NCBI GenBank assembly: GCA_018417955.1
Contig: JACTVC010000001.1
Location: 4,216,001 to 4,280,000, forward strand
Origin: Laccaria trichodermophora
Taxonomy: Eukaryota > Basidiomycota > Agaricomycetes > Agaricales > Hydnangiaceae
Direction: 5' to 3'
Length of the DNA stretch: 64,000 bases
This document shows positions 13,267 to 36,070 of the stretch, one piece after another (position 1 is the stretch's first letter; every line of letters begins with the position of its first letter). The notes beneath the pieces are model-generated. The model ran no database searches, was not told the origin of the DNA, and saw only the letters and a program-made list of their open reading frames with translations. A program made the position numbers and the translations under genes.

Positions 13267-14854
13267 TGATACGGAGTGTAACAATACACCCGTAAAAATG
13301 CGAATTTTAGCAAATTCTCTTATAAAACCTTCTATAGTAGAAATACAGTCACGTTGATCATAAGGATCGTTAGACACAACCCGGTCTAGTCGATTAAAGT
13401 TTACATCCGAGAAATGTGCACGCCTTAGGCAGTAGGAATTGCGGTCGGTTCGTGACCGAATCACTTCAATATACTCGAAGTCTAATAAAAGGCTACGCTA
13501 CCATGAAATAGTACACTGCCGAGTGTTCTAGAGTAAAGACACCCCTGCACAGGGTGTTGGAGTTTACACCAAACCAGGGTCTCACTTTATTATGGATTAA
13601 AAGATATTAATTCTAAAGATAAACGCGCGAGCGTAGAAACTCGACGTGTACCTGACGCGAGAAGTCATTCAGTCACGTGCTACGAAGTATGATCCAAGAA
13701 GTCATGTGGAGAAACGCATCACGCGCATCAACGCATCACGCATCATGGCATCATTGACCCAAGAAAACTTAGCTTCGTGAAATATTCAGACGTCTGCCAA
13801 AAGAGAAAAACTATGAACGATTTGCCGTGCGGTCCGAAACCCGGGCATAGTATCTAATAATAGAGAGAAAAATCACTAAGCGGACCGTTCGTCTCGGCTG
13901 AACCGATCGTGAAAACCGTTTACGGCGATTCCCGCGTACGCATCAATACTGATGCGTCGCGTCGTCACAATAGAGAAAACACTACGAAAACTTAAAAGAA
14001 GTCAGCTCAGTTGTGCCACACACAACCGAGCCACTTCAAACCTTTACTAAAAATCAGTATTAATTCGTCCGACCTCTCGGACAACGCATGGACATGTAAA
14101 TATAAATAGAAAACATAGAATAGTATAAAAAGGAGGACGCGCGCAGGCTGAAACGCAAGGAATTATCCCCCGCATTGACCAGCTGTTGCACTCCCAGTAG
14201 CATCTGAGGTAGTGGATAAGTTTGTAATCAATTTAAGGACTTTTCTTCACAGACATAAGTAACGTGTGCCCGGAACCAGCGTGTTAAGTGGGGATCACAA
14301 AGCTTTTGTAAGGTTGTCTCGTCAATTAGTAAGAGAGCTCTCTACTATTACCGAGGAATCCAAGTGAGCGTGCTTGAAGAGTCTTTAAGACTAGTTTGGA
14401 CCGCATCAGAGGCATAATAAAAGCTCCAGGGAGTTATAAAAGTCTACAAAGCACAATTCCTTGTCATTTCTTCGCATACAGTTAGAACGCGATCCCAGAA
14501 CGCCGAGACAGTCCCAATAAAAGCAGTTTCCCTTCGAAGACTACTAAGTTTCGAAATTCTATACTTGTGCCCGCACGTAAAAATAATACCTTCGTCACCA
14601 AAAAGGTCTACTAGACTTAGACAAGTGATATAAAATATACAAAACCGTTTCCACGAACTTCTGCTTAAGTTCTAACAAAACAAGTGTGGTAATTCTATTT
14701 ACCGTACGAACCCGAACTCGAAGTACCGAGCACGTACCAGTGGTGATAAGTGTTTAAGGTGTTTGTGTGTGTGTGTGTGTTGTTTAGGTGTTCACGCATC
14801 TTGTCAGCACGTCCGATTGCACTATTCACACTCCCGCGTGACACGGACTTCTCA
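13267..14854 (+). repeat. 5' LTR of Gypsy 3
   Basis: 1588 bp, beginning TGATACGGAGTG and ending ACGGACTTCTCA. This is much longer than the Gypsy 1 LTR. It contains a TATA-like TATAAAAAG at 14124-14132, followed by an untranslated leader region and a (GT)n run near 14765. The only differences from the 3' LTR that I see are the GT-run length and G versus A in CCCGCGTG/CCCACGTG. Confidence 0.95.
14124..14132 (+). promoter_or_regulatory. TATA-like box in 5' LTR of Gypsy 3
   Basis: TATAAAAAG in a GC-poor upstream context, followed by a GC-rich stretch (GGACGCGCGCAGG). This is a plausible core promoter for the genomic RNA. The identical motif is at 31654-31662 in the 3' LTR. Confidence 0.55.
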
Positions 14855-14856: not shown

Positions 14857-14874
14857 TGGAGCCCACCGCGAGGG
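14857..14874 (+). other. Primer-binding-site candidate of Gypsy 3
   Basis: TGGAGCCCACCGCGAGG starts two bases after the 5' LTR. A TGG start is expected for a site complementary to the CCA end of a tRNA. I do not assign the tRNA. Gypsy 1 has the same two-base TC spacer before its own site. Confidence 0.6.
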
Positions 14875-15348
14875 TTTTCATTTGTTTTGTTTTTCAATTA
14901 TACTTGAAAAAGTCGTTTGAAAGCGGTTTTCGAATTATTTAAAACATCTGTTTGAATCAACCAAAGACCATAAAAACCAAGCCTAGTTTCTAATACCAAG
15001 AACTAGCATCAAAAGTCGTTTACAACGGCAGCCATAAAAATCAGAGAAACAGCCACATCTAAAAGAGCTAGAGAAGGTCCACAAGTACCCTTACCTCCTA
15101 CACGGAAACTCAAACGCGCTGCTGAGCCAGTCGTACAATGTTACCCGTTAAGAAAAGAAGTACCTCCAAAACCTATACCTAGTCGACCTGCGAAAGCTGT
15201 TTGTCAATCTGAACCAAAATCTTCGAACTCAAAAGCCAGATTAACTGGACTAAGAGCCGTATGTAGAGAAAACAGTCGGCTAGCAGAAAAGAACTTGACA
15301 GAGTTGAAAATTTTAACTCGAAGTTTTAGGGCACAACAAAAATTACTC

Positions 15349-16353
15349 ATGGCGCCGCCAGTATTGGTGAGCAACCGAGAGTTAGTTGACATGTTCTTAG
15401 GCTGTCTGACAGATTCCTTTGCTGATCAAGTTAAGGCCAGTTTGAATATTGAACAAACTAGAGACCGAAAACAGAAAGGCAACGAGGATGAGACCACTGC
15501 TAGAAGAACTGAAGATCCATACGATATCATAGACATCATAGACATGGCAGAAACCATCGCTGGACGTCTTACTGGAGACTCCCGAGACCACCCAAGCAAC
15601 GCAAGAGCTGTATCGACTGGTAGATCAGTTCAAGCGCGCGAACGAGAAATTAAAACAGAGCATGACGAATTCGAAGAATTGCGAAGTATTACTGCAACGT
15701 TCCTTGATCAAATTAAAGTAGATCAAAAACAGAATTCAGAACTTCGTAATATGGTACAAAACACGCAGATCGAAATGAAGAAACTCTTAGAGACTTTAGT
15801 TCACCAACAGCCAAATATCAGTAACCCACAAAGCAAAGTGGCGAGTTATAAAATGACGTCAGATGGCTGTTGGTACTGTGATGAACCAGGCCATTTTACT
15901 TCGAATTGTCCACATAGAGAAGCACACGTAGCCCAGAAGAAAATCAAGCTTCTTGGGAACCGAATGTATTTTACGCATAATAATACTGCAGTACCTAGAG
16001 GGAATGGCGAAAAATCCGTTCGACAAATTGTTGAGGAGGCTAGTAGGCAAAATTCGACTCTACAAAATAATATGTTTGCAGAGCCTGGAGAAGTCTTTAG
16101 TCAAGAAACTGTTGTCCCAGGTATAATCAGGCTACCAGATAATAATAATGGAAATGAAATTTCCGTTTTTACAAACCAGATGCGAGATACAAGAGACGAT
16201 GTGATTCTCAACATGAATAACCAAGTGTTAAAACTTACCGACATGCTTGCGAACCTTGTTACAAACCCCAATAAAACAAGGGACGTAGACGCGTCGCAGT
16301 TTGCCGTCACCCGTAGATCTCAAACCGAGACTCAGGGACAGTCGGGAAACTAA
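15349..16353 (+). CDS. Gypsy 3 gag-like protein with zinc knuckle
   Basis: The frame is open from about 15006, but the first ATG is at 15349. The protein contains RELVDMFLGCLTDSFADQV, which looks like the C-terminal end of a capsid domain, then a charged and probably coiled-coil region. A CCHC zinc knuckle (CWYCDEPGHFTSNC, about 15884) would bind the genomic RNA. It is short for a Gypsy gag: most of the capsid region expected before RELVDMF is missing or reached by splicing or non-ATG initiation. The next ORF follows nine bases after the stop. Confidence is high in gag identity and low in the exact start. Confidence 0.75.
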   Translation: MAPPVLVSNRELVDMFLGCLTDSFADQVKASLNIEQTRDRKQKGNEDETTARRTEDPYDIIDIIDMAETIAGRLTGDSRDHPSNARAVSTGRSVQAREREIKTEHDEFEELRSITATFLDQIKVDQKQNSELRNMVQNTQIEMKKLLETLVHQQPNISNPQSKVASYKMTSDGCWYCDEPGHFTSNCPHREAHVAQKKIKLLGNRMYFTHNNTAVPRGNGEKSVRQIVEEASRQNSTLQNNMFAEPGEVFSQETVVPGIIRLPDNNNGNEISVFTNQMRDTRDDVILNMNNQVLKLTDMLANLVTNPNKTRDVDASQFAVTRRSQTETQGQSGN

Positions 16354-16361
16354 AGAGTCCG

Positions 16362-17591
16362 ATGAAGGGGCCTTCCAGTAAGACTAAACCCAATGCTGGA
16401 GAACCAAAGGCACCGGAGGACGCACCAAAGAAAAGGGGTAGGAAAGTTGTGATTATCGAAGAATCAGAGGAAGAAGAAACTCCTCCCGAGAAACCAGAAA
16501 ATCTCAATGGACCAAAGAAAACTTTGAAAAATTATCAAAAATTACTTGAAAGAAATGATGATGTCGAGGATCCTAATCCAAGGCACAAACAATTACCGTA
16601 TCTCGGTATCCCAGACTTAAATAGTAACGAGAAAGAATCAGTGGAAGAGTATGACCCAGTGCCTTTCTATGAGAAGCGCCCGATAGCATACAAGCATTTA
16701 GCTCCAATAGAAAATGTTAAAAATGAGGAACAAGCGTTGAACAGTCTGTTAAAAGCACCTGTTACTCTGAGCGCGGAAGTACTTATGAGCATTTCTCCTG
16801 GAGTAAGGCAAGAATTGTTTAAGGCCTTAGCTAAAAAGAAGGTACCAATTCAGACTGCTCACAATCGGAAAGTAACTATAGTCGAGGAGGTTGATAAAGA
16901 CGCACCTCCAATTAAAAAGCAAGAAGATAAATTTAATTTCGGAAAAATCAATATAAATGACTTGGACATCAAAGCCACTTTTATGTGCACGACAGAGGAT
17001 GATGGAGTAATACCAAAGGGTTCTATAGTCCTAACAGATCCTGTTGAGCAATATTTGCAAGGCCTAGGCTCATCGGAAACTCCGAAGGAGATTTACGTAT
17101 CTAAAGAGTCCCATGCTTTAAAATCGATATATCCAGTAATTAATAAGTTTGGTCAAGTAGAGAGCTTGTTGGATGGTGGCTCACAAATTGTATCAATGGA
17201 TGCGGAGGTTGCTAAGAAATTAGCAGTCCCTTGGGATCCTGATATAACCATCCAAATGCAAAGTGCGAATAGAACTGTGGAAAAGACCCTTGGTCTCGCC
17301 AAAAATGTTCCATTTAACTTCGGAGGAATTACGATTTACCTGCAAGTACATGTAATACGGGACCCAGCCTATAAAGTACTATTGGGCAGGCCCTTTGACG
17401 TGTTAACAGGGAGCGTGGTCGTAAACTCTACGGACGGCGGACAGACGGTAACCATAACGGATCCAAACTCTGGCAGAAGAGCAATGTTACCCACTTTTGA
17501 CAGAGGAAAACCACCAGTAATGATGAAAATGCACACTGAAGAGGATCTTCAACCGAAAACTGAGAAAGTTTTTCAACCCTCGATGATTTGA
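16362..17591 (+). CDS. Gypsy 3 protease ORF (retropepsin-like)
   Basis: A 409-residue ORF. The N-terminal half is lysine- and glutamate-rich. The C-terminal half is a retropepsin-like domain with LLDGGSQIVSM, where Asp is the predicted catalytic residue, then MQSANRTVEKTLGLA and VLLGRPFDVL. The active site is Asp-Gly-Gly rather than the usual Asp-Ser/Thr-Gly. The ORF ends ATGATTTGA. The pol frame is shifted by -1 and overlaps it over about 17564-17591, so pol is probably made by -1 frameshifting. I see no perfect slippery heptamer. The role would be processing of the gag-pol polyprotein. Confidence 0.8.
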   Translation: MKGPSSKTKPNAGEPKAPEDAPKKRGRKVVIIEESEEEETPPEKPENLNGPKKTLKNYQKLLERNDDVEDPNPRHKQLPYLGIPDLNSNEKESVEEYDPVPFYEKRPIAYKHLAPIENVKNEEQALNSLLKAPVTLSAEVLMSISPGVRQELFKALAKKKVPIQTAHNRKVTIVEEVDKDAPPIKKQEDKFNFGKININDLDIKATFMCTTEDDGVIPKGSIVLTDPVEQYLQGLGSSETPKEIYVSKESHALKSIYPVINKFGQVESLLDGGSQIVSMDAEVAKKLAVPWDPDITIQMQSANRTVEKTLGLAKNVPFNFGGITIYLQVHVIRDPAYKVLLGRPFDVLTGSVVVNSTDGGQTVTITDPNSGRRAMLPTFDRGKPPVMMKMHTEEDLQPKTEKVFQPSMI

Positions 17592-20500
17592 TTGAAAAAG
17601 ATCAAGGAGAAATCGTGATAGCTTTCGAAGAAGATGGTGAGGGAGGATATAAAGTCCTATCGTACGCCTTACCAATGGACGATCAATTCTCTGAAGAAGA
17701 GACTAGGAATTTGTATCTTACAAAATACTTAAAACGGGAAAAAGAAAAGATGACAGACAAGGCGGCTAGTACGGTTCTGGTAAACTACTTAGAAAAATAT
17801 TATTCTAAGCAAAGTCGAGAATCGGGCACCGCGTCTACAGTGGAAACCATGATGAATACGATATATAACCATGACGGTAAAGCGCAACCGAGCGGAGTGG
17901 AGGGTGAACATCCTGCGACAAGGGAGGTTCTGGTAGCTAAAAAGTATAAACCAGTCGCACAGAAAATCCGACCTGTCTTTCAGGACCTGCCAGATAAATT
18001 TCGAATTATTCGGGATATAAAAGGCGATCCAATGGACACCTTGCCAAAGCTGAATAGAAACCCACCAGAATTCACACCCACGGGACGCTATACTGAAGAA
18101 CGAAGAGAGCAATTTGACAAAGTTCATAACGGCGATTTCTTGTGGCCAGAGGAGCGCAAACTATTACATCATTTTATGATGAAAAACAATGAAGCCTTTG
18201 CTTGGGATGATAGTGAGAGGGGGAGCTTCAAAACAGAATACTTCCCACCCGTAGACATTCCAGTAATTCCACATACGCCATGGGTTTTGAAAAATATTCC
18301 GATACCTCCTGGACTTTATCAAGAAGTGTGCAGAATTATTAAGACCAAATTGGATGCCGGGGTATATGAACCCTCAAATTCCTCTTATAGGTCAAGATGG
18401 TTTTGTGTATTAAAGAAAGATGGAAAAAGCCTGAGGTTAGTACATAGTCTGGAACCGTTAAATGCAGTGACTATAGCACATTCAGGATTACCACCTGCAA
18501 CCGATGCACTTGCTACGCATTTCGCTGGTCGAGCTTGCGGAGGAATGTTTGATTTATACGTTGGATACGATGAAAGGCTCTTGGCAGAGACCTCCAGGGA
18601 TCTGACTACATTTCAAACGCCTTTTGGAGCTTTAAGACTTGTCACTCTGCCCATGGGTTGGACAAATTCCGTTCCAATTTTCCATGATGACGTTACGTAT
18701 ATTTTACAAGAAGAAATTCCTGAAGTAACTGTACCATATATTGATGATGTGCCTGTCAGAGGGCCTGCAACAAGGTACGAGTTGCCAGATGGAAAATATG
18801 AGACTATACCTGAAAATCGCGGTATAAGAAGGTTCATAATGGAACACTTCGAAAATGCTAACAGGGTAGTTCATAGGATGAAATATGCTGGAGGAACCTT
18901 TTCGGGATTTAAGTCGGTAATTTGTGCGGCTGAAATAACAGTTGTAGGCCACCTATGCACTTATGAAGGCAGAAAACCGGAAACTGAAAGAATGAAAGTT
19001 ATAGATCTTTGGGGGCCTTGTAAAGACCTACATGATGTCAGGGCTTTTCTAGGAACTGTAGGGGTCTGCAGAATGTTTATTGAGAATTTTGCAAAGAAAG
19101 CAGAACCTCTCAACGATTTATGCAAAAAGGGGGCTCCTTTTGTATGGGGACCGGCACAAGAAAAGTCTATGGATGAATTGAAATCCTCACTTCGCGAAAG
19201 TAAAGCGCTCGTGCCGTTGGATTACGAAAATAATCCTAACCCAGTGGTACTAGCTGTAGACACCTCTTGGAAAGCGGTTGGGTTCTACATATATCAGGAT
19301 AACAATACGACTGGGCTTAGGCAGTATGCCAGGTTCGGTTCTATAACTTTGAATGATAGAGAAGCTCGATTTTCCCAACCAAAAAGAGAATTATTTGGTT
19401 TAATGCGGTCTTTACAGGCTGCATCATACTGGCTTCTGGGATGTCGAAAATTAATTGTGGAAACAGACGCGAAATACCTGTCAGGTATGCTTCGAAACCC
19501 TGAAATGGGACCGAATGCAACCATCAACAGATGGATTGACGCATGTCTAATGTTCCATTTTAAGTTACAACATGTCCAAGGAAAGACCTTTGGCGCAGAT
19601 GGATTATCACGCAGAGACGCTCAACCAGGTGACGATGTGTATCCACCTCCAGATGAACATCTCGACGAACCCGTTGGTGTCATTGAAGTGTTACCAGATC
19701 CAGATGGAGGGGAGCCCCCTTTGGATTTCGAAACCTTCAAAGATCAAATTGACTCGAGGGGGGGATATATCCAACAATTGGCTCTAGACATCTCAGATTT
19801 TCAGGATGAACTAGACAGGGAAATAGCAATGACACAGAAAATAGCTAAAGATGTGAAAACAAGAGTAGACAATGATCCAGATCATACAGAAAGCAGCCCA
19901 GAACAGAAGGAATTTCTTCGAACTTACATGATTTCGACTTTAACTTCACCAGGCCTGGAAGCCAGGTTTGACGAACTAGAAACAGAGCAACCTTACCCGG
20001 AAACTCATAGGTCATTTATTGGACAGTCACAGGATGAATTCCTTCTTATACTAAGAGACTGGCTGAAAAATCCTAAAAAGATCGAAGGATATTCTGATAA
20101 AAAGTACGGCGCTTTCGTAAGATTTGCAAAAAGCTTCTTCCTAGACAAAGAGGATAGATTATATCGTCGAAGCATTGAATCACGTCACAAGCTAGTGGTC
20201 GACAAATCTCACCGAATGTACATGATGAGATCTGCACACGATGCTATGGGACATAGGGGAGCGTATGCTACGCAGAATATGTTAACGGAGCGTTTTTGGT
20301 GGCCTGAAATCGAAAGAGACATACATTGGTATGTGAAAACATGCCAGCGTTGTCAGGAACGTACCAAACGTGTAGTGGAAATCCCACCCACCGTAACACA
20401 TACACCATCTATTTTCCAACGACTGCACGCTGATACCGTACATATGACTCCGAAATCCAATGGATGTAAATACATCGTCCATGGGAGATGTGCACTGTCA

Positions 20501-21487
20501 AGCTGGGTTGAAGGAAAACCCCTAAAAAGTGAAACTGCAAGAACTGTCGGCTTATGGCTTTTTGAAGAAGTCATCTGCAGATGGGGTTGTCTAGAAGTAA
20601 TAATAACTGACAATGGTTCGGTTTTCCTTGCTGCTGTAAAATGGCTCGAAGAAAAATACGGGATAAAGGGGATTAGGATATCACCGTATAATTCTAAGGC
20701 AAATGGCAGAATCGAAAGGCCCCATTGGGATATTATACAAATGCTCACAAAGTGCTGTGGACCCAAGAACCTTGCCAAGTGGTATTGGTTCTTTTGGCAA
20801 GTACTTTGGGCTGACAGGATCACAATTAGAAAAAGATTTGGTTGTTCGCCGTTCTTTATGGTAACAGGCGCACATCCAATATTACCTCTCGACGTACAGG
20901 AGGCTACCTGGTTAGTAAAATTACCAGATCGTATGTTGTCCACTGCAGAATTGATTGGCTATAGAGCCAAAGCATTAGCAAAACACAGGCAGCATGTGGC
21001 GGAAATGCGCGAGAGGGTCACCTTAGAAAAAATGAAAAGAGTGGCAAAATATGAACTGAGCCACCGCCACAAAATCAGTGGTCGAATTTATAAACCCGGA
21101 GACCTGGTGCTTATCAGAAATTCGCAGGTATCCTCGTCATTAAATAGTAAAATGCAACCAAGATACCTGGGACCTATGATTGTGGTGCGTCGAACAAAGG
21201 GAGGTTCATATATAGTTTGTGAACTAGACGGATCAGTCAATCACAATAAAATTGGAGCGTTCAGAGTCATCCCGTATTTCGCAAGAGAGAGGATCGACTT
21301 ACCTGAGCACTTCAGTACACTTATTGATGCAAGCAATGAGGAACTGGATGAAATCGAAAACACAGGCGTTGAAGAAAGACCTAACGCAAGAGATTACTAC
21401 TTTGAAGGAGTTAATCTTGATGGGTCTTCCGCAGATGAATCCGGGGACTTAGAAGAAATCGAAGATTTAAGTGAAGAAGAGGCTTAG
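17564..21487 (+). CDS. Gypsy 3 pol: reverse transcriptase, RNase H, integrase
   Basis: Open for about 1300 residues with no stop. The reverse transcriptase has the catalytic VPYIDDVPV (about residue 385 counted from 17588). RNase H has AVDTSWKAVGF, VETDAKYLSGML and HVQGKTFGADGLSRR. The integrase has an HHCC zinc finger (HDAMGHRGAYATQ...CQRCQERT) and a D, D, E core seen in LHADTVHM, IITDNGSVF and NGRIERPHW. The C-terminal part (LGPMIVVRRTKGGSYIV) resembles the SH3-like domain that follows the integrase core. There is no clear chromodomain. The frame is -1 relative to the protease ORF and lacks its own ATG at the boundary. With near-identical LTRs, the enzyme is probably still functional. Confidence 0.93.
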   Translation, partial: ESFSTLDDLIEKDQGEIVIAFEEDGEGGYKVLSYALPMDDQFSEEETRNLYLTKYLKREKEKMTDKAASTVLVNYLEKYYSKQSRESGTASTVETMMNTIYNHDGKAQPSGVEGEHPATREVLVAKKYKPVAQKIRPVFQDLPDKFRIIRDIKGDPMDTLPKLNRNPPEFTPTGRYTEERREQFDKVHNGDFLWPEERKLLHHFMMKNNEAFAWDDSERGSFKTEYFPPVDIPVIPHTPWVLKNIPIPPGLYQEVCRIIKTKLDAGVYEPSNSSYRSRWFCVLKKDGKSLRLVHSLEPLNAVTIAHSGLPPATDALATHFAGRACGGMFDLYVGYDERLLAETSRDLTTFQTPFGALRLVTLPMGWTNSVPIFHDDVTYILQEEIPEVTVPYIDDVPVRGPATRYELPDGKYETIPENRGIRRFIMEHFENANRVVHRMKYAGGTFSGFKSVICAAEITVVGHLCTYEGRKPETERMKVIDLWGPCKDLHDVRAFLGTVGVCRMFIENFAKKAEPLNDLCKKGAPFVWGPAQEKSMDELKSSLRESKALVPLDYENNPNPVVLAVDTSWKAVGFYIYQDNNTTGLRQYARFGSITLNDREARFSQPKRELFGLMRSLQAASYWLLGCRKLIVETDAKYLSGMLRNPEMGPNATINRWIDACLMFHFKLQHVQGKTFGADGLSRRDAQPGDDVYPPPDEHLDEPVGVIEVLPDPDGGEPPLDFETFKDQIDSRGGYIQQLALDISDFQDELDREIAMTQKIAKDVKTRVDNDPDHTESSPEQKEFLRTYMISTLTSPGLEARFDELETEQPYPETHRSFIGQSQDEFLLILRDWLKNPKKIEGYSDKKYGAFVRFAKSFFLDKEDRLYRRSIESRHKLVVDKSHRMYMMRSAHDAMGHRGAYATQNMLTERFWWPEIERDIHWYVKTCQRCQERTKRVVEIPPTVTHTPSIFQRLHADTVHMTPKSNGCKYIVHGRCALSSWVEGKPLKSETARTVGLWLFEEVICRWGCLEVIITDNGSVFLAAVKWLEEKYGIKGIRISPYNSKANGRIERPHWDIIQMLTKCCGPKNLAKWYWFFWQVLWADRITIRKRFGCSPFFMVTGAHPILPLDVQEATWLVKLPDRMLSTAELIGYRAKALAKHRQHVAEMRERVTLEKMKRVAKYELSHRHKISGRIYKPGDLVLIRNSQVSSSLNSKMQPRYLGPMIVVRRTKGGSYIVCELDGSVNHNKIGAFRVIPYFARERIDLPEHFSTLIDASNEELDEIENTGVEERPNARDYYFEGVNLDGSSADESGDLEEIEDLSEEEA

Positions 21488-21639
21488 TAGACTTATGCTT
21501 TAAAAATTGGCTAAAGTTTAATAAAACCTCCAGCAGTTTATAAACATAATGCGCAAGCGCCTTCTAGATTTTCCATGCGTAGTCAACTATACATGCGGGC
21601 TCTAGGTGTCCGTCTATGGAAAAAGTTCGGATAGTTCTA

Positions 21640-23071
21640 CTACTCCTTAGTTACTTCACGCTCAGCAATCTGGGCAAGGGCAATTTCGTAATCAGCGACA
21701 AGTACATCGCGAAGACGAAGCTCCAAGTCAAGGCGCTGCATACTGAGAAGAACGCGTTCACGAAGATCGACCTCTTGCTGCTTGAAATAAGCAAGGGTGG
21801 GATAAGCCGGCATGCGGTTGGTAACAGCAGCATGTGCGCGCGCTAAGATCTCCCTGTACAAAGGGTTGTCGATGAGCAAGGAGTTGGCAGACTCGTCTAT
21901 AACGAAGGACGAGCGCATTAGTTTACGATTTATGAAAATAAAGATAAAATACGAACTTTGACGAGACTGAAGGTCTGCTAAGCCACTGATAAAGGGCGGT
22001 TCAGTACGAGGGCGTTTGTCGCCGGCGCAACTGCCTTTGGCATGTTCAACGACAAGGGCCTTGTGAAATTCGCGACTGTTAGTGTCCATACCTGGAACAG
22101 CGTCGTAGGGAATGCTGACCGTTTCGGCACGTTTGGATTTGGCTGGGGTCTGTTATGTTCGAATAAAATATGAAGTTAACAACGTGGCAGTGGACTCACG
22201 CAATAATAGCAGCTTACCTTGGGACCAGAGGCAGCGCGCTTCTTGCCTTTCTCTTTGGGAGAGGAAGCGGCGTCCTTGACTTCTTCGTCACCAAAGAGGT
22301 TGTCCACAGCCATCTGAGCAAAACGGTACGCAATATTAAAATTGTGTTCTGCTCGAAAGAAAATAAAAATAACGCACGGTGTCAGCTGCAGTGATAGCGT
22401 TGGGGCCATCACACCCACCCATCATAACGTCGGTATCCGAGGGGCCGGGGACGATCTCGACCTCGTCGTCCTTGTCCTCGACGACAGCCTTGGACTTGAC
22501 AAGCTTGCGGGGACGCTGTTTCAAAATGTATCCACGCTGCGTTAATAAAATGAGAAAAGATGAACAAAATAAGTATAAACGTGCCTTGGCTTTGGCGGCG
22601 GCCATTACCTCTGCAATCTCAGCCTGAGCCTGAGCTTGAGCAGTAACAGGTGGTGGAACGACCTGCGCAGCGGCGCGCGCGGCGAGAACGGCGCGACAAT
22701 ATTCTTTGATAGTGTCGAAGTCGGCTGGGGGCGCGATGGCGTGAACTCCAGTGCTGCGGGTATTGTACTCGCCTCTAACAAGGAAAAGCACGTTGTGCAT
22801 TGGCTGGTGCGTAAGCAGACACGGATCTTTGGTGTCGATAAGCTGAACCTAGTCAAGTGCACGGTATTAGCCTTTGTTCGAAGAAATAGAGAATACGAAG
22901 TTTATGACAGAAAAATTCGCGACTTACACAGTAGTTAGCGGCTACGCCAAGAATGGTGGGAGCGGCAGCACTGTTCAGTCCCTCTTTCATGTCCTGATAA
23001 GTTTTGAAGGCAGTAAGAGCGGACTCGCGAAGCTTGACAGCGGCGGGAAGAGCGTTTTGTGGGATAGACAT
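21640..23071 (-). CDS. Antisense spliced gene 2 of Gypsy 3, function unknown
   Basis: Starts at ATG 23071 (MSIPQNALPAAVKLRESA) and runs through six exons separated by short GT-AG introns. Approximate exons are 23071-22930, 22850-22583, 22538-22381, 22312-22218, 22150-21978 and 21902-21640. Frames join without stops. The protein has an Ala/Gln-rich stretch, an acidic segment (VVEDKDDEVEIVPG), a Lys-rich segment (PKEKGKKRAASGPK) and a predicted helical C-terminal half rich in Leu, Arg and Glu. I do not recognise the family. It lies between pol and the 3' LTR on the strand opposite to gag-pol, so its introns cannot be spliced from the genomic RNA. Its codon use is GC-richer than that of the adjacent pol. 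Confidence 0.6.
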
Positions 23072-23720
23072 AATGAGCGAGTGGTAAAATGAGAGTGCTT
23101 GGTAGAAAGCAAAAAAACTGTTCTGTCCGAAAAATTTTCCCCACTACCTGCTTTTATATGTGTGTCTGAGACCAAGGCGTGCGCGTTCCGAAATTCCGCG
23201 TTGCAATTCACTTGAAGCGTAAAAATTTGGAGTTGCGCGTTCCAGCGCGATCACGTCTAAAAATAGAATAAACTTTCCGAGCCTTGGATTTCCCACGCCA
23301 TGTGACATATGAACTTAGTCGTTTTGACTGAGGACAGTCAATATTTAGTGAGGGGGAGGGATCAAGGCTACCTTGATAGATAAAAAATTCGATTTCATGA
23401 TTCACTAAAACCACCAGGGGGAAAAGAGTCATAAAAACGCGAACTAGAGACATAAAACCCTAAGGCAGAATGAATTTGATAGAAAAATGCGAAATAAAGT
23501 CGAAAATTCACAAGTTCACACTCTAGAAAGCATGCAAAAAGGCTCTCACTTAGGAACAAATCTCAAAAAGTTCAAGAAAGATAAAGTCAAGATTCTACTA
23601 TAAGGACAGCAGAATCTAACTACAAAAGATAATGACACAAAAAGGTTGATATAGAAAGTCCAAAAAAACTAAGATGTCCGAATGCATGCCAAGTAGAAGA
23701 GTCCGTAAAAACAAGCGCAC
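23072..23720. other. Intergenic stretch between the antisense genes, with an extra polypurine tract
   Basis: No ORF is credible here. At about 23325-23361 the sequence reads ACTGAGGACAGTCA, then an AT-rich bit, then GTGAGGGGGAGGGA. It closely resembles the 3' polypurine region at 30761-30796 (CCGAGGACGGTCA ... GTAAGGGGGAGA). The region must also hold the promoter of antisense gene 2 and the 3' end of antisense gene 1. Confidence 0.55.
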
Positions 23721-24746
23721 CTACTCCTCGTCAACAAGCTCGTCGATAACCTCCTCCTCCTCCTCCTGAGAATGGGCGGAAGGTGGAAGACCAGGCGAAG
23801 CAACGGCGATAGAGGGAATAAGGGACAGCGAGCGGACGCGGCGTTGACGAGGGGTCAGAGATGAAGGCCCAGCAATGGGAGGAGAATCGTCTCGCTGAAA
23901 AAGCGAGACGAGTCTCTCCAAATCGGCCGTCGTTGAACCTGCAGGCACTGGGACCCCCTGAGTATCTACAAAGTCTTGAACGAAGCTGTACCATGAGCCG
24001 AACTCCTCGCGGGTCTCGAAAACAGTGCCTAGAAGAGTTCCAGGCTCGGCGGTGAGACACAGGTCCGCGATGGCGTTTGCGAACTCTCGAAGATTGGCGT
24101 CTCGACGATGGCGAATGGCCTCAAGGACCGTGGATAGGGTGCGCATATGAAGCGCGTCTTCTTCGATGGACTCCATCAGCGCAGATATAGCTAGAAAAAT
24201 AAGTGAAAAGTCATTAAAAAGACTATAAAACAAATAGAAAAAGAAAAAAAATCATACCTGAAGGCGCATGAATAGCCAACCGGTTACGGATGACATCCCT
24301 GACGGCCCCTCGGCGTTCATCATTCAGATAGTACTCACACGAAGAAACATGCGCCGCGTCGCAAGGACCGCAGGGAGTGCCCCACCCACGAAAGGTGCAG
24401 TTCTTGACAGCGGAATCCTTGCGCGCGGAGCACTGAAGGCAAGGTTCGGGCATCTAATAAAACAAGTATCAGTACCTATGAGAAACTCAGACAAAGATGA
24501 GAGGAGGAGACATACGTGGATTTGTGTACCCTTAAGAACCGCGGGGAGCTCTTTAAGCCCAAATCTAGCGGTAGCACGTTCTAAAAAGAAAGTCAGCAGG
24601 GTAAACAAAATACTAGCGAAAGAACGACTTACTAAATCGCTTCTTGTCGAACACGATGGGCTCTTCAAAGATAACGGGAGCTGGAAAAAACACGAATTAT
24701 AAAGTTAAAAAAAACAAATTGAGAAAGAGAAAAAAAAAAAACTTAC

Positions 24747-24777
24747 ACTTCTTACGAGGGCGACCGCGACGCTTGGG
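24747..24777 (-). other. AT-hook-like motif in antisense gene 1
   Basis: Encodes PKRRGRPRK. The RGRP core is the signature of AT-hook minor-groove DNA binding. It sits at an exon end just before a GTAAGT donor. Confidence 0.6.
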
Positions 24778-25964
24778 TTGAACAGAAGTTTCCTTCTGCT
24801 TGACCACCGGTGGCTTAACGACAGTACGCTTGGCGGAACTACGAGTAGTAGGAGGAGTCCTCGCCCGAGCCTTTCCCTTGTCAACTCGAGATGGGCCTGC
24901 AACAGGCGGAGGCGTCTTGGCGCGACCCTTGCCCTTGTCTGCACGCAAAGGCCTAGCGAGAGGCACAGAGTCCGACGAGCTCGAACGAGAACGGTTGGGA
25001 TGTTGGATGGCCTCGTCGTCAGACGAGGGTTTCGCAATAATCTTGCGTCGTTTACCTGGCTAAGCAACCAAAAGAATTAGTAAAAATGTCTAAAAGAGAG
25101 AAAAACGAAGTAACTTACAGGGCCGATAGCCAGTTTCGAGGGCATTGTAGACGGAGGATCGATGATCTCGACCACGTCCGAATCTTCGTCCACGATCATA
25201 GCGCGGGTACGCTTCGATCTTCGAACAGGGGCAGGCGGCGTCGAGTCAGGCGAGGAAATTGGCGGAGACTCTGGGCCAGGGCTTGGTAGAAACAGCGGAT
25301 CGGATCCAGTAGGAGAAGGAGACTGAACGACACGAGCTCGACCTCGAGGAGCAATACTCTCCGAAGGTGACGAAGACTCGCGGTCGCTCGGCGCGTCCTC
25401 CTCTCCTATGTACCCCGTGGTAAAGCTGGAGTCTAGACATTCGCTCTAGAAAGATAAAAATCATTAGAAGAAAAATAAAAAGAAAGAACGGAAGAAAGTT
25501 ACTTACAGGGCTATAAAGCGCGCGACCATCCGATGGTTCTTGCAGCCATTCCTCCCAGGCAGTACTTCGGTTGCGTTCTTCAACGCGTTGGGCGGCATTG
25601 TAAACGGATGCCAGTAAACGAGACTCGTGTGGCGTAGGACCACCAGGACGAGCGAGGATGTCCGAAAACAATGCTAACTAAGGCAATAAAAAGTCGAAAA
25701 TCAGCAGAGAATAAAAGAAAAGAACAGAGACTCACCATGTAACTATGCAGGCGGTATAGCGTAGCCATAATCTCGGCCTCAGACATAGCGTTGAGGCGGG
25801 AACGCGAGAAGAGCACCAGTAGCTGTTACTTTCATATATGAATAATGGGAAGTTGTCCAAAAAGCATCTTATATCAGAATGGGTAGTTGCCTGCTGGACA
25901 GTTTACCAAGAGTCATGATGTGTCGTTAACGTAGGCTATAGAGGACGTGAGTGAGCTCAGTGGT

Positions 25965-26560
25965 TGTGCTCACTGTTGGTGACGACGTCGGGCACTGTTT
26001 TCAGGGTCCAGGGCGCATTTCCAAATAAGGAAATATGCGCATTTCCAAATGAAAAATAGCAATAAAATAGGGAAAAAATCAGAAAAAAATGGGGGATGGT
26101 GCTCACTGTTAGTGACGACGTTGGGGGCTGTTTTCAGGGTCCAGGGCACATTGCCAAATATGGTAATATAGCCAAAAATAGCCAGAAAATAGCCAAAAAA
26201 TCAGAAAAAAATGGGGAATGGTGCTCACTGTTAGTGACGATGTCAGGCACTGTTTTCAGGGTCCAGGGCACATTGCCAAATATGGTAATATATCCAAAAA
26301 TAGCCAGAAAATCAGAAAAAAATTGCAGGTGGTGCTCACTGTTAGTGATGACATTGGGGTCATTTGCAGGGTCCAGGGTGCATTGCCAAATATGGTAATG
26401 TATCCCAAAATAGCCAAAAAATCAGGAAAAAATGGCAGGGTGGTGTTCACTGTTGGTGATGACATTGGGGTTGTTTTCAGGGTCCAGTGTGCATTTCCAA
26501 ATATGGTAATATATCCAAAAATAGCCAGAAAATAGCGGAAAAATTGGAAAAACATATGAA
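25965..26560. repeat. About 120-bp tandem repeats in the left arm of E
   Basis: About five copies of a unit beginning GGTGCTCACTGTTAGTGACG and containing TTTTCAGGGTCCAGGG and CCAAATATGGTAATAT. The mirror array is at about 29570-30165. The open frames here repeat the unit and are not genes. Confidence 0.85.
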
Positions 26561-27109
26561 TGGTGTACAGAACATCAAGCACTGCCTTCAGGGTCCACTT
26601 CAGGGTCCATCCCAAAAGGGAAATATGACCTGGTGTGACTAAAAGTGAAGAAAAGCAAGATGAGAATGATTTTACCTATCAGGGTCCATGTAATGGGATG
26701 TTGGGATGTTGGTCACATGACCAATTACCAAAAATGGTCAAAAAAACGAAAGTTGTAGCCCTATGCTGTAGCTTTCTGAATCTGTTTGAATTATGTTCTG
26801 AAGTGCTCCCATTGTGGAGATATGAGGTAAAGGAATTTCAAAAGCGTCGCGTTTTTTTTTGTTTTTTGTGTTTTTCTCCATGAAAACAAAACCAAATAAC
26901 ATGATTTCAGTATATTTAGAAAGCTAAAAGAAAGGGCTACAAATATTGTATCGTGGGAAAATTGACCAAAAAAGGAAGGTGCATGCCCTACAGATATAGA
27001 CTACAAAAAAGTCGGACTTAGACTACAAAGTTTACTGACACATACAAAAGACTACAAAAGTTTATAGACTACCAAATTTACTGATAGACTATAAAAGTGA
27101 GATGCAGAC

Positions 27110-27700
27110 TACAAAAGCTTGGACTTAGACTACAAAGTTTGTAGTGTCCGCTTTTTCATAAGAAAGTCTGTATTGTCTGCTTTTTGAGACTACAAAAGTT
27201 TGTAGTGTGCGCTTTTTCATTAGAAAAGTTTGTAGTATCCGCTTTTTGAGACTACAAAAGTTGTAGTGTGCACTTTTTTATTAGAAACGTTTGTAGTATC
27301 CACATTTTGAGACTACAAAGTTTGTAGTGTGCGCTTTTTCATCAGAAAAGTTTGTAGTATTCACTGTTTGAGACTACAAAAGTTTGTAGTGTGCGCTTTT
27401 TCATCAGAAAAGTTTGTAGTGTCCGCTTTTTGAGACTACAAAAGTTGTAGTGTGCGCTTTTTCATCAGAAAAGTTTGTAGTATCCACTTTTTGAGACTAC
27501 AAAAGTTTGTAGTGTGCGCTTTTTCATTAGAAAAGTTAGTAGTGTGCGCTTTTTCATCAGAAAAGTTTGTAGTGTCCACTTTTTGAGACTACAAAAGTTA
27601 GTAGTGTGCGCTTTTTCATTAGAAAAGTTTGTAGTATCTACTTTTTGAGACTACAAAAGTTTGTAGTGTGTGCTTTTTCATCAGAAAAGTTGTCTGCTTT
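27110..27700. repeat. About 60-bp tandem repeats in the left arm of E
   Basis: About ten copies of a unit made of GACTACAAAAGTTTGTAGTG, GCGCTTTTTCAT and AGAAAAGTTTGTAGTG. Each unit contains the small palindrome CTACAAAnnTTTGTAG. The mirror array is at about 28530-29020, and related copies are in element F (49600-49900, 50640-50860). Confidence 0.85.
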
Positions 27701-30385
27701 TTCATTTAAAAAAGTAGGTAATTGACATGTAGTTTATGGTGTCCTTGGACCTATCTATGTTATGGGGATGAGGTTGAAGGATTGCCATCATATTGCCAGT
27801 GCTGCAGCATTAGTTTTTGACATCATGCACAAATTGTCTTGCACATCAGGAAAGGCCATCCTAAGCCTTTCATATTGATACATGCTGTCCTATCTGAAAA
27901 GATAATTGGAAGCTCATGTGGGGATATGACTAAAAAATTGACATGACATCATCAGTCTTTTGACATCATGACCAAGTTACCTTTCATCCTGTCTGCTTTC
28001 ACATTTACAGCTACTGGCCTGTATGAAACATAGTCAACTTTGATACATTCATGTGGGGGTATCACTGAAGGATTGACATAACATCACCAGTTTTTGACAT
28101 CATGACCAACTTGGCTTTTGATGATGGGCTGATCCATCCTTGGAGGTGTCTTCAAGTCAGGTCATGTTGTAAGTTGACCATGTACTGAGTAGATATCAAC
28201 ATGAATAGCCTCCTCTACCTGAAAGCCAACTTGGGCATGATGTGAGAAACTGCTGATGTGGCAATAGCAATATTTAAAGTCATGTCAATCCTTCATCATA
28301 TCCCCACATGAGCTTCCAATTATCTTTTCAGATAGGACAGCATGTATCAATATGAAAGGCTTAGGATGGCCTTTCCTGATGTGCAAGACAATTTGTGCAT
28401 GATGTCAAAAACTAATGCTGCAGCACTGGCAATATGATGGCAATCCTTCAACCTCATCCCCATAACATAGATAGGTCCAAGGACACCATAAACTACATGT
28501 CAATTACCTACTTTTTTAAATGAAAAAGCAGACAACTTTTCTGATGAAAAAGCACACACTACAAACTTTTGTAGTCTCAAAAAGTAGATACTACAAACTT
28601 TTCTAATGAAAAAGCGCACACTACTAACTTTTGTAGTCTCAAAAAGTGGACACTACAAACTTTTCTGATGAAAAAGCGCACACTACAACTTTTGTAGTCT
28701 CAAAAAGCGGACACTACAAACTTTTCTGATGAAAAAGCGCACACTACAAACTTTTGTAGTCTCAAACAGTGAATACTACAAACTTTTCTGATGAAAAAGC
28801 GCACACTACAAACTTTGTAGTCTCAAAATGTGGATACTACAAACGTTTCTAATAAAAAAGTGCACACTACAACTTTTGTAGTCTCAAAAAGCGGATACTA
28901 CAAACTTTTCTAATGAAAAAGCGCACACTACAAACTTTTGTAGTCTCAAAAAGCAGACAATACAGACTTTCTTATGAAAAAGCGGACACTACAAACTTTG
29001 TAGTCTAAGTCCAAGCTTTTGTAGTCTGCATCTCACTTTTATAGTCTATCAGTAAATTTGGTAGTCTATAAACTTTTGTAGTCTTTTGTATGTGTCAGTA
29101 AACTTTGTAGTCTAAGTCCGACTTTTTTGTAGTCTATATCTGTAGGGCATGCACCTTCCTTTTTTGGTCAATTTTCCCACGATACAATATTTGTAGCCCT
29201 TTCTTTTAGCTTTCTAAATATACTGAAATCATGTTATTTGGTTTTGTTTTCATGGAGAAAAACACAAAAAACAAAAAAAAACGCGACGCTTTTGAAATTC
29301 CTTTACCTCATATCTCCACAATGGGAGCACTTCAGAACATAATTCAAACAGATTCAGAAAGCTACAGCATAGGGCTACAACTTTCGTTTTTTTGACCATT
29401 TTTGGTAATTGGTCATGTGACCAACATCCCAACATCCCATTACATGGACCCTGATAGGTAAAATCATTCTCATCTTGCTTTTCTTCACTTTTAGTCACAC
29501 CAGGTCATATTTCCCTTTTGGGATGGACCCTGAAGTGGACCCTGAAGGCAGTGCTTGATGTTCTGTACACCATTCATATGTTTTTCCAATTTTTCCGCTA
29601 TTTTCTGGCTATTTTTGGATATATTACCATATTTGGAAATGCACACTGGACCCTGAAAACAACCCCAATGTCATCACCAACAGTGAACACCACCCTGCCA
29701 TTTTTTCCTGATTTTTTGGCTATTTTGGGATACATTACCATATTTGGCAATGCACCCTGGACCCTGCAAATGACCCCAATGTCATCACTAACAGTGAGCA
29801 CCACCTGCAATTTTTTTCTGATTTTCTGGCTATTTTTGGATATATTACCATATTTGGCAATGTGCCCTGGACCCTGAAAACAGTGCCTGACATCGTCACT
29901 AACAGTGAGCACCATTCCCCATTTTTTTCTGATTTTTTGGCTATTTTCTGGCTATTTTTGGCTATATTACCATATTTGGCAATGTGCCCTGGACCCTGAA
30001 AACAGCCCCCAACGTCGTCACTAACAGTGAGCACCATCCCCCATTTTTTTCTGATTTTTTCCCTATTTTATTGCTATTTTTCATTTGGAAATGCGCATAT
30101 TTCCTTATTTGGAAATGCGCCCTGGACCCTGAAAACAGTGCCCGACGTCGTCACCAACAGTGAGCACAACCACTGAGCTCACTCACGTCCTCTATAGCCT
30201 ACGTTAACGACACATCATGACTCTTGGTAAACTGTCCAGCAGGCAACTACCCATTCTGATATAAGATGCTTTTTGGACAACTTCCCATTCTGAAGGCTTC
30301 AGGTAACAGCACTGGCTGAGAAGAGGTCAATGCCGACTTCGAACGCTTGGACGGCGGCGCGACAACCAAGGAATGCGGTAGGCAT

Positions 30386-30796
30386 GGTGGGGAAAGTTAG
30401 AAAGAAATTGTGACAATCGCTCCCATAAAGCACGAAGTTTATAGGAACGACAGGCGGAACATACGGAATAGCGAGGCACTTTCCGAAGAATAGTCTACGG
30501 GAGAAGATCGCTGAGAATCCCTCGGTTCCGTCGACCCTGAAAATCTTAATGGACGCCAAAAACGTTAATCAACTGAGGCGTACCTAGGCAACAATAGGAA
30601 TATGATGTCATGTCTTCGAAGAATAACGTGCCTGCACTAGTAATAGCAATTGACGCCGAAAGATAAAAGACACGCTTGACAGACGGTGATCTTTTGAAGA
30701 CATATCAATATAAAATCCAGAAAAACACGAGGGGAACGTCCTCACACGGGGATCTAGTGATGACCGAGGACGGTCAGTATTATAGTAAGGGGGAGA
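30386..30796. other. Region upstream of antisense gene 1, ending in the polypurine tract
   Basis: About 410 bp between the start of antisense gene 1 and the 3' LTR. I see no second gene. It should contain the minus-strand promoter of antisense gene 1. It ends at 30785-30796 with AGTAAGGGGGAGA directly before the LTR, the expected primer for plus-strand DNA synthesis. Confidence 0.6.
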
Positions 30797-32382
30797 TGAT
30801 ACGGAGTGTAACAATACACCCGTAAAAATGCGAATTTTAGCAAATTCTCTTATAAAACCTTCTATAGTAGAAATACAGTCACGTTGATCATAAGGATCGT
30901 TAGACACAACCCGGTCTAGTCGATTAAAGTTTACATCCGAGAAATGTGCACGCCTTAGGCAGTAGGAATTGCGGTCGGTTCGTGACCGAATCACTTCAAT
31001 ATACTCGAAGTCTAATAAAAGGCTACGCTACCATGAAATAGTACACTGCCGAGTGTTCTAGAGTAAAGACACCCCTGCACAGGGTGTTGGAGTTTACACC
31101 AAACCAGGGTCTCACTTTATTATGGATTAAAAGATATTAATTCTAAAGATAAACGCGCGAGCGTAGAAACTCGACGTGTACCTGACGCGAGAAGTCATTC
31201 AGTCACGTGCTACGAAGTATGATCCAAGAAGTCATGTGGAGAAACGCATCACGCGCATCAACGCATCACGCATCATGGCATCATTGACCCAAGAAAACTT
31301 AGCTTCGTGAAATATTCAGACGTCTGCCAAAAGAGAAAAACTATGAACGATTTGCCGTGCGGTCCGAAACCCGGGCATAGTATCTAATAATAGAGAGAAA
31401 AATCACTAAGCGGACCGTTCGTCTCGGCTGAACCGATCGTGAAAACCGTTTACGGCGATTCCCGCGTACGCATCAATACTGATGCGTCGCGTCGTCACAA
31501 TAGAGAAAACACTACGAAAACTTAAAAGAAGTCAGCTCAGTTGTGCCACACACAACCGAGCCACTTCAAACCTTTACTAAAAATCAGTATTAATTCGTCC
31601 GACCTCTCGGACAACGCATGGACATGTAAATATAAATAGAAAACATAGAATAGTATAAAAAGGAGGACGCGCGCAGGCTGAAACGCAAGGAATTATCCCC
31701 CGCATTGACCAGCTGTTGCACTCCCAGTAGCATCTGAGGTAGTGGATAAGTTTGTAATCAATTTAAGGACTTTTCTTCACAGACATAAGTAACGTGTGCC
31801 CGGAACCAGCGTGTTAAGTGGGGATCACAAAGCTTTTGTAAGGTTGTCTCGTCAATTAGTAAGAGAGCTCTCTACTATTACCGAGGAATCCAAGTGAGCG
31901 TGCTTGAAGAGTCTTTAAGACTAGTTTGGACCGCATCAGAGGCATAATAAAAGCTCCAGGGAGTTATAAAAGTCTACAAAGCACAATTCCTTGTCATTTC
32001 TTCGCATACAGTTAGAACGCGATCCCAGAACGCCGAGACAGTCCCAATAAAAGCAGTTTCCCTTCGAAGACTACTAAGTTTCGAAATTCTATACTTGTGC
32101 CCGCACGTAAAAATAATACCTTCGTCACCAAAAAGGTCTACTAGACTTAGACAAGTGATATAAAATATACAAAACCGTTTCCACGAACTTCTGCTTAAGT
32201 TCTAACAAAACAAGTGTGGTAATTCTATTTACCGTACGAACCCGAACTCGAAGTACCGAGCACGTACCAGTGGTGATAAGTGTTTAAGGTGTTTGTGTGT
32301 GTGTGTGTTGTTTAGGTGTTCACGCATCTTGTCAGCACGTCCGATTGCACTATTCACACTCCCACGTGACACGGACTTCTCA
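30797..32382 (+). repeat. 3' LTR of Gypsy 3
   Basis: 1586 bp, near-identical to 13267-14854. TATA-like TATAAAAAG at 31654-31662. Followed by TSD GAGT (32383-32386). Confidence 0.95.
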
Positions 32383-33087
32383 GAGTCCCGCATTGTTGCC
32401 TAGGATTACTGACCCTTGTGCCGTTCGGATAGTTACGGTGTCGGCGTCAAAGTCGTGTATTGCCTTGAAGCAACGTAACAGTGGCTTCCCAAACAGGAAC
32501 TCCCAGCCACCGCCACTATCGAAAACTTCGAATTCCCCCTCTGCGTAAAGCCCTTCTAGCTCCAGCCGTCCCTTCCATGCACCCTGTGAGGGAATGATAA
32601 CCCCATTTGCCATTCGTAAGCGTCGCTCTGATGGCTTGGTTTGACCGCAAAGTCGGTGTTGTATTTTCTTGAAGAATGACGTGCACATGGCACCCACCAT
32701 TGCTCCTCCGTCGAATAGTGCTTTGACTCTCACTATCTCGCCTTGTGGCCCATGTATAAGTAGCCAGTGCATGAACGGTGTCTCCTTCTGCTCTAAAGTT
32801 TCCCATGTCTTATCCGTATCCCCAACAGAGTACAGGTCAATGATCGTTGAATTAATGCACGTGGTATGTACAACATTGAAACTGTCTGAACTGCTGGGGC
32901 GGTCGACTCCTGCATGCTCTACCGAAATCGGGGCCGCCCACTCGTTACTTACGCAGGCGGCCCTTCCCCATTTCCCGGGCTTGGCGCAGGCCTGAAGGCT
33001 TGATAGTTGAGCCAGCTGAATTCGTCGTCCGCATCGTTGACGAAGTTGACTTGAGAGGTAGGCGCAGCGCGAAGGATGCGGCCGCAT
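32383..33087 (-). pseudogene. Gypsy 1 protease region (start of pol), cut by Gypsy 3
   Basis: Minus-strand frame overlapping gag by about 140 bases in the -1 frame, suggesting -1 frameshift expression. It contains LFDGGAMVGAM, the predicted retropepsin active site (Asp-Gly-Gly), then RRLRMANG and EFLFGKPLL. The frame runs up to the Gypsy 3 LTR (NNAGL) and resumes at 13262 (VKRTPIG). Removing Gypsy 3 and one GAGT restores continuity exactly. Confidence 0.85.
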
Positions 33088-34699: not shown

Positions 34700-34843
34700 T
34701 GGAAAGGGCACAAGTGCCTCCGATGATGCAGATGCGTGGTGAAGTCCTCCTGATTGCTGTCTCTGCCTGCCCTTCTACTCTACTAGCTGACTAAGCTACT
34801 GCTCACGTGCCTCTCCGGGGGGAATGCCCCACTCCCTATTCCA
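34700..34843 (-). repeat. 5' LTR of Gypsy 1
   Basis: 144 bp. It differs from 9035-9178 only at CCGATGATG versus CCGACAATG. Followed on the plus strand by TSD GCGG (34844-34847). Confidence 0.92.
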
Positions 34844-35751: not shown

Positions 35752-36070
35752 TGTGATATAGGATTGGAAGGGAATGCCCAGAGGCCATAGTCAAACAGTG
35801 GTATATAGCTAGATTTGGATATCTTACATAATATATTGATCTTTTGTCTTGAACCACCACCTTGTCAGCAGTCTTGCCATCCTCTTGCACTACATGTAGT
35901 GCTTTGTATAACTGTACTTCCTACAGTATGCATAATCATGTTGGGCCAGCTGAGTATCTTGTAACTGCTCATTGCTCACTCATGGGTGTTGATCCCAGAT
36001 CCACCCATTCTTGCCTCCTCCTTCCCTCTTGGCTTCAGCTATGCGAGAAGTTCAGAGTGAACGCTTCACA
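35752..36070 (+). repeat. 5' LTR of element H
   Basis: 319 bp, starting TGTGATATAGGATTGG and ending GAACGCTTCACA. Confidence 0.92.

Follow-up and report, generated by a model that had tools for sequence, protein, structure and literature searches.

Two spliced antisense genes between pol and the 3' long terminal repeat of a Ty3/Gypsy retrotransposon look like accessory genes of its Laccaria lineage

Why should a retrotransposon carry intron-containing genes on the strand opposite to its own genomic RNA, and could their proteins serve the element? The question is raised by a Ty3/Gypsy long terminal repeat (LTR) retrotransposon of Laccaria trichodermophora, found in a stretch of 64,000 nucleotides (C1:4216001-4280000 of a 59-Mb genome in 77 contigs), which is called the window here; other loci are likewise named contig:position. 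The original prediction, made from the letters alone, placed two minus-strand genes between the integrase and the 3' LTR, and both are present. To judge from sequence comparison, these genes, named g1 and g2, look like real accessory genes of a Laccaria Ty3/Gypsy lineage and not chance frames, because they lie antisense at the same place in diverged families, their intron plans match and they are under purifying selection. We give a probability of roughly 60% to the fuller reading, in which their products would be nuclear and would tune the transcription or chromatin of the element, most likely favouring its expression against host silencing.

The models of both genes were made by hand, and a small gene finder based on dynamic programming was trained on them. 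The two approaches agree on g1, and on g2 up to its stop, past which the finder ran on into g1. On the minus strand, g1 (23071-21640) lies nearer to pol than g2 and has six exons encoding 355 amino acids: exon 1 (22928..23071, 48 codons, phase 0), exon 2 (22609..22848), exon 3 (22378..22515, with an acidic/hydrophobic motif, DDEVEIV), exon 4 (22218..22313), exon 5 (21957..22149, with KRAETVxIPYxAVxGMDT, which is kept between families) and exon 6 with the stop (21640..21896). The 3' end of exon 2 is ambiguous: its junction with exon 3 can be read as a 93-nt GT-AG intron, as a shorter intron, implied by Laccaria bicolor models that end the exon elsewhere, or as no intron, and the L. bicolor models disagree among themselves here. 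The minus-strand gene g2 (30385-23721, a span that includes an insertion) has eight exons: exon 1 in two parts (30318..30385, from the ATG, MPTAFLGCRAAVQAFEVGIDLFS, and 25736..25813), exon 2 (25507..25677), exon 3 (25119..25445, with DVVEII), exon 4 (24747..25059, with KRRGRPRKK at its end), exon 5 (24633..24680), exon 6 (24516..24580), exon 7 (24258..24453, with a six-cysteine cluster, CX2CX10CX8CX2CX7C) and exon 8 with the stop (23721..24190, an acidic C-terminus). The motifs were picked by eye; we take DDEVEIV and DVVEII to be like SUMO-interacting motifs (SIM-like) and KRRGRPRKK to be AT-hook-like. The exon counts predicted originally, about nine and six, are right for the six of g1, and g2 has eight. 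GT-AG introns and open joints, also predicted, hold in all chosen models (introns of 52-67 nt in g2 and 60-93 nt in g1), and the codon use is GC-richer than in pol as claimed, with a third-position GC content (GC3) of about 0.56 in g1 and about 0.54 in g2 versus 0.35-0.38 in gag, protease and pol. Upstream of the start codons, TATAAA is found 87 bp from the g1 ATG and CTATAAA 59 bp from the g2 ATG; the same pattern search gave CTATAAA 91 bp upstream of the g2 ATG in a related element, C4.

The best spliced-gene score was 235 for g1 and 310 for g2 (with the 5' part of exon 1 left out), compared with maxima of 54 and 63 in 30 dinucleotide shuffles each and of 62 and 106 on the opposite strand. 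All six regions scored (g1, g2 and four others) beat their 30 shuffles and the opposite strand; because the scorer was trained on g1 and g2, the test is circular where the window is concerned, which does not apply to the four other regions. In the flank of an unrelated family, C13, a score of 110 was reached with 17 exons, most of them short, and values of roughly 110-140 therefore call for independent support. The two genes were also considered as possible paralogues, which is not supported (profile comparison probability 1.3%), though both first exons have 46-49 codons and phase 0.

A search for the same pair in other Gypsy copies was made in six frames over the same genome, using the spliced proteins and a 300-amino-acid integrase query; the copy counts are lower bounds, because only the best candidates were scored. 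Both genes were found together at 11 or more further places. At least 15 loci have an integrase at least 79% identical over the query, and 12 of these 15 hold both genes; the other three are C14:563k with g1 only, C17:108k with a 17-residue g1 stub (4.5 kb read) and C1:5235k, where neither was found. Wherever g1 or g2 occurs among these loci its orientation is opposite to pol, and at C8 the two genes lie about 14 kb apart. The two-gene loci comprise family A (seven loci, including C4), family B (three, including C75), family C, which is C19, and the window's own. An antisense coding region thus lies between pol and the 3' LTR and is kept in most copies and related families, as in aORF-3R elements. 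Single-gene matches also occur: C14:562k has g1 without g2, C21:346k has one g2 exon next to LTR matches, and C67:1255k holds a piece resembling g2.

These copies have diverged considerably. Compared with the window, integrase C-termini at 10 loci are 75.7-81.7% identical over the main stretch (C19 also has a 52% piece), and the accessory proteins are 30% (g2) and 40% (g1) identical, so that g1 and g2 change much faster than integrase, yet are kept. All seven g2 introns of the window recur in C4 in the same order and phase (six clearly aligned, the third in a low-complexity stretch), and those of C75 agree likewise, with exon 6 set by hand in that model. For g1, order and phase agree for five of five introns in C4 (the one at the ambiguous junction being shifted by a codon) and for four of five in C19. 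These plans, retained in many copies, bear out the earlier view that the introns are kept on retrotransposition. In family A, full-length open frames are present in six of seven g1 copies (one with a GC donor at the last intron) and five of seven g2 copies. In family B and C19, alignment-derived g2 models had stops, and the directly predicted, partly hand-set C75 model is open. The nearest database proteins belong to L. bicolor S238N-H82, with up to 94% identity for whole g2 as queried and 92% for whole g1; the exon structure of g2 is the same in the L. bicolor models P0001 and P0002, and the g1 models of that species agree but for one junction. A literature search with six of the L. bicolor locus tags matched no paper. 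Relative to P0001, the L. bicolor g2 copies P0002, P0003 and P0004 also show several R-to-C/H/Q changes, a pattern that CpG deamination could produce.

Selection on these genes was estimated as the ratio of nonsynonymous to synonymous divergence (dN/dS, Nei-Gojobori) in 20 pairs, which share sequences and are not independent; the g2 of C23b, C76 and C19 and the g1 of C76 were left out. The ratio across copies, a check suggested with the original prediction, was well below 1, at 0.05-0.21 in 13 of the 15 comparisons without a window sequence. For g1 it was 0.17 for C4/C75 (A/B), 0.15 for C4/C1b and 0.16 for C4/C19 (A/C), and for g2 it was 0.15 for C4/C75 (A/B) and 0.05 for C4/C1b. Among the five window pairs, three gave 0.29-0.35 near saturation and two had infinite dS. 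Fisher p values for eight g1 and g2 pairs that were retested ranged from 1e-2 (C4/C7 g2) to 6e-56, and from 5e-8 to 6e-56 for g1 A/B, g1 A/C and g2 A/B. Integrase gave 0.04-0.17 in four pairs among A and B, the A/B values being 0.14-0.17. The introns of C4 and C75 differ by 7.7% in g1 and 36% in g2, not far from synonymous sites. From these comparisons, g1 and g2 are judged to be under purifying, protein-level selection about as strong as that on integrase. The same C4/C75 pair has a dS of 0.07 in integrase, 0.12 in g1 and 0.94 in g2, and the change occurs in the 3' flank of g2; because g2 is far more diverged than g1 and integrase, families A and B are read from these values as mosaics produced by recombination within the pol-3' LTR region. 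A breakpoint exactly at a hairpin between the two genes (described below) was rejected, as the change seen in sliding identity falls near C4-oriented position 2272, some 220 bp away from the hairpin (2494).

In the mechanism that we propose, g1 and g2 would each be transcribed by the host from its own minus-strand promoter, marked by the TATA-like boxes, and the introns would survive because reverse transcription uses the sense genomic RNA, where they are unspliceable. The products would then enter the nucleus, where g2 may bind DNA through its six-cysteine cluster, AT-hook-like motif and basic and acidic tracts, and g1, with its helical ends and SIM-like motif, may act as its partner; together they would adjust how the element is transcribed or the state of its chromatin, most likely helping it to be expressed against host silencing. 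The function suggested with the original prediction, control of the element or of host silencing, would fit the nuclear, DNA-binding look of g2. The six cysteines are kept in all seven g2-type sequences compared and are invariant in six rows of a database alignment, and the AT-hook core RGRPRK is intact in the window, C4, C75, P0001 and P0004.

Several observations weigh against this proposal. The AT-hook core is changed in P0002, P0005, P0006, P0008 and C19, and hence the AT-hook is not a constant g2 feature. Pfam, at E up to 1, gave no family for g1 or g2 of the window and C4, and a PDB profile search gave no relative. AlphaFold models were poor, with a mean predicted local distance difference test score of 46 for g1, whose helical ends appear at low confidence, and of 34 for g2, which is unusable. 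The pattern search gave no TATA-like box within 300 bp upstream of the C4 g1 ATG. Some copies are damaged (C8 has a stop in g1 and another in g2, and g2 of C1a has a large in-frame deletion), and dN/dS of g2 is higher for C4/C8 (0.28) and C4/C7 (0.40). In a sister family, at C21:608k, a hairpin box of the kind described below is present, and no antisense gene lies between pol and the box. A search beyond this genome, which succeeded in finding the L. bicolor models, gave no homologue outside Laccaria in three protein database searches (two of them scoring the best 7992 and 7999 candidates). Finally, the window's own g2 is interrupted. The interval first proposed as the gene region, 21640..30796, does hold both genes, but a foldback transposon in it had been missed. 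This transposon (25814..30317, 4504 bp, two arms of about 2 kb, 8-bp target-site duplication (TSD) GAGAAGAG at 25806 and 30318) splits exon 1 of g2, and each part of the exon includes one copy of the duplication, the 3' part stopping at the insertion. The N-terminus encoded by the 5' part matches that of L. bicolor P0001-P0003, which carry it uninterrupted, and thus intact g2 copies exist elsewhere.

Among the other explanations, the one that survives best, which we consider possible though rather unlikely, is that the element encodes a self-limiting repressor, whose proteins hold down its own transcription or copy number. The DNA-binding look of g2 fits a repressor too, and loci are few (seven in family A, and both genes of the window's type only at the window locus in this genome, though LTR matches are numerous); however, selfish copies would be expected to shed a self-limiting gene readily, whereas both genes persist at most of the related integrase loci (12/15). 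Less probable again is that the antisense RNA is the functional part, pairing with genomic RNA to give double-stranded or small interfering RNA or acting by transcriptional interference, with the frames incidental or decaying. Such roles have been proposed for plant and other elements in the account given by PMC7264820, and pol and g1 are convergent with 152 nt between their stops, but dN/dS of 0.15-0.17 in C4/C75 while the introns of the same pair diverge, and the six cysteines kept across g2-type sequences, speak for a protein product. We find it improbable that g1 and g2 are recently captured host genes carried as passengers: their GC3 is unlike that of gag-pol, but they occupy the same site in families whose integrases differ by 15-19% over the 300-residue query and whose g1 and g2 are only 30-40% identical, and the complete pairs that were found all accompany these integrases (the pieces at C67:1255k and C21:346k aside). 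A gene-finding artefact built on chance open minus-strand frames is refuted by the cross-family evidence, for even though the C13 flank shows that scores alone can mislead, it is opposed by the shuffles, by homology, by the agreement of the intron plans and by selection at the codon level.

Antisense genes also occur in sister families. The elements at C14:672k and C12:1062k/1071k have integrases 44-45% identical, and the two that were read, C14 and the first C12 copy, each have one three-exon gene between pol and the LTR, oriented against pol. The products have 337 and 357 amino acids and six cysteines each, spaced CX2CX11CX18CX2CX6C and CX2CX9CX9CX2CX6C. No significant sequence match links these single genes to g2, and their probable homology with it rests on position, the cysteines and a similar exon plan. 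Diverged relatives of the C12 protein occur at C19:880k (46%) and at C17:570k (44%), where the gene runs antisense to a piece of integrase at C17:567k, and C30:242k is weakly matched by both sister proteins (E 1e-4 and 2e-3). A PDB match of the C12 protein to a designed pentatricopeptide repeat protein (E 0.1) was taken as chance. In C34, C24, C76 and C13 (integrase 29-43%; one element each, about 4 kb) no convincing antisense gene was found, and the C24 site cannot tell, because its antisense frame reads, by eye, like a Copia polymerase. Two further observations concern these loci. At C12, the integrase matches at 1062034 and 1070879 are 8845 bp apart and each is followed by a 99% antisense-gene match, possibly reflecting tandem elements that share an LTR. 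At C34:1636500-1641000, downstream of the Gypsy integrase (43%; frame of 2193 amino acids), the sense strand reads, by eye, as WD40-like repeats.

Beside the antisense genes, these elements carry a short hairpin next to a polypurine tract (PPT). In the window, the plus-strand terminal module, with hairpin TGACCG-AGGA-CGGTCA and purine tract GGGGGAGATGA (30761..30796), abuts the 3' LTR, and the plus-strand internal one, with hairpin TGACTG-AGGA-CAGTCA and purine tract AGTGAGGGGGAGGG (23325..23363), is placed between the two genes, roughly 255 bp upstream of the ATG of g1. The order in the window group is pol, g1, hairpin-PPT, g2, hairpin-PPT and LTR, and in C14 two copies flank the single gene (pol, hairpin-PPT, gene, hairpin-PPT, LTR). 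Within the window only, the 14-base core with two mismatches gave three matches (two exact), and 11 of 100 shuffles gave as many, which is not beyond chance. Over the whole genome, the pattern gave 16 matches and the reversed-pattern control 0; by coordinates, 15 of the 16 fall between pol and the 3' LTR of these elements (14 where an antisense gene is present, one in C21), so that the module is nearly specific to them. A lone exact hairpin box at C67:1408534, away from the analysed elements, is perhaps a remnant. A second pattern, with at most two mismatches, gave eight internal copies (control 0), each located between the two antisense genes of a family A, B or C element, and the second purine tract, a candidate central PPT, is present in the window and in these three families. 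In the eight boxes, 48 of 48 stem cells pair and three of the six pairs change on both sides, in few independent lineages; the covariation score was reached by 1 of 500 shuffles, and the number of pair types was not above shuffles. RNA folding of four boxes gave -7.6 to -8.2 kcal/mol (z -1.6 to -2.1), and the hairpin symmetry would be equally expected of a dimeric protein site. The conserved hairpin beside the PPT is a candidate target of the products or a candidate reverse-transcription signal. A bolder and quite doubtful idea is that the elements were built from cassettes, each an antisense gene with its promoter and hairpin-PPT, added between pol and the LTR. The hairpin would then have two roles, as a symmetrical site recognised by the six-cysteine protein of the element itself and as a signal for plus-strand priming. 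If so, one short module would link reverse transcription with the control of these genes and would mark the place of gene capture.

The host element itself spans 13267-32382, with pol on the plus strand. Its 5' LTR (13267..14854, plus strand) starts with TGATACGG, ends with TTCTCA and is preceded by the 4-bp TSD GAGT (13263-13266), and its 3' LTR (30797..32382, plus strand), also with TG..CA ends, is followed by GAGT (32383-32386). The LTRs, about 1.59 kb each, are 99.75% identical (self-BLAST, 13263-14854 against 30793-32382), and since a single substitution and a single 2-bp indel were found between them, the insertion is young. Three overlapping sense open reading frames (ORFs) follow on the plus strand: a gag-like ORF (15007..16353) with a weak CCHC knuckle (Pfam zf-CCHC, E 0.0032, 17.9 bits, under the cut-off of 20.8), an aspartic protease ORF (16317..17591; gag-asp_proteas, E 2.2e-6) and the pol ORF for reverse transcriptase/RNase H and integrase (17564..21487; RT_RNaseH_2, RT_RNaseH and Integrase_H2C2), in which RVT_1 and the integrase core were not called by Pfam at E 0.01. 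The LTR ends and TSD, together with the Gypsy order of protease, RT_RNaseH domains and integrase zinc-binding domain, identify the element as a Ty3/Gypsy LTR retrotransposon. Rfam gave 0 matches within 21487-32400. Elsewhere in the window, a second foldback element (48202-52187) has, like the one in g2, long inverted arms and internal tandem repeats, and the two share several-hundred-base pieces at 83-88% identity. The two copies of a 319-bp direct repeat (35752-36070 and 39311-39629, 100% identity, at a distance of 3.6 kb) resemble the LTRs of a further young element, and a 144-bp stretch occurs at 9035-9178 and 34700-34843 with 98.6% identity.

These genes are of practical interest in two respects. 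First, public models of the same genes exist for L. bicolor S238N, and therefore their transcription, localisation and DNA binding are directly testable. Second, they are a warning for annotation, since such genes sit in fungal proteomes as "uncharacterized proteins". Compared with known protein families, the g2-type clusters recall the fungal Zn(II)2Cys6 transcription factors, in which six cysteines are arranged as CX2C...C...CX2C...C. They share the CX2C pairs and a final loop of 6-7 residues, but their first loop has 9-11 residues and not 6; membership in that family was rejected, as the PS00463-type spacing is present in 0 of 9 sequences and Pfam Zn_clus (PF00172) gave no match.

Compared with known elements, the Laccaria lineage joins a group whose antisense accessory ORFs have been described mainly in plants, and it is a fungal lineage that keeps one or two such genes in spliced form. 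The plant aORF-3R elements include Grande (gene23), RIRE2 and Retand (TRP28 domain); an own promoter and a nuclear protein are reported for the Grande antisense gene in the account of PMC7264820, and DNA binding is predicted for TRP28 according to PMC11963269. Here, in contrast, two genes with five and seven introns are present, and neither of these two plant papers uses the word "intron" in its main text; the Retand-type Transposase_28 domain (PF04195) gave no match in g1 or g2 of the window and C4 at Pfam E up to 1. In deltaretroviruses, HBZ of HTLV-1 is an antisense-encoded nuclear regulator (as summarised in PMC11963269), with the antisense promoter placed inside the 3' LTR (as summarised in PMC7264820); likened by description, it resembles the nuclear regulator proposed for g1 and g2, but belongs to vertebrate viruses. 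For fungi, the suggestion that such a system might be undescribed does not stand as such, because the Boty-like Gypsy element of Botrytis cinerea was already known to carry an antisense gene, brtn (Zhao et al. 2011, cited via PMC7264820 and PMC8365987). By its description there, Boty is likewise a fungal element with an extra antisense gene between pol and the 3' LTR, but it has one gene and belongs to an ascomycete. The main text of the L. bicolor transposable element survey PMC3411680 has 0 occurrences of "antisense" and "ORF", and among the literature matches listed, judged by titles and abstract openings and with subscription papers mostly outside their scope, none concerned spliced antisense genes or a hairpin-PPT pair in a fungal Gypsy element. 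Antisense ORFs in Gypsy elements are thus already known, and what the Laccaria elements add is a selected pair of multi-exon antisense genes, a protein with a cysteine cluster and a hairpin-PPT present in duplicate.

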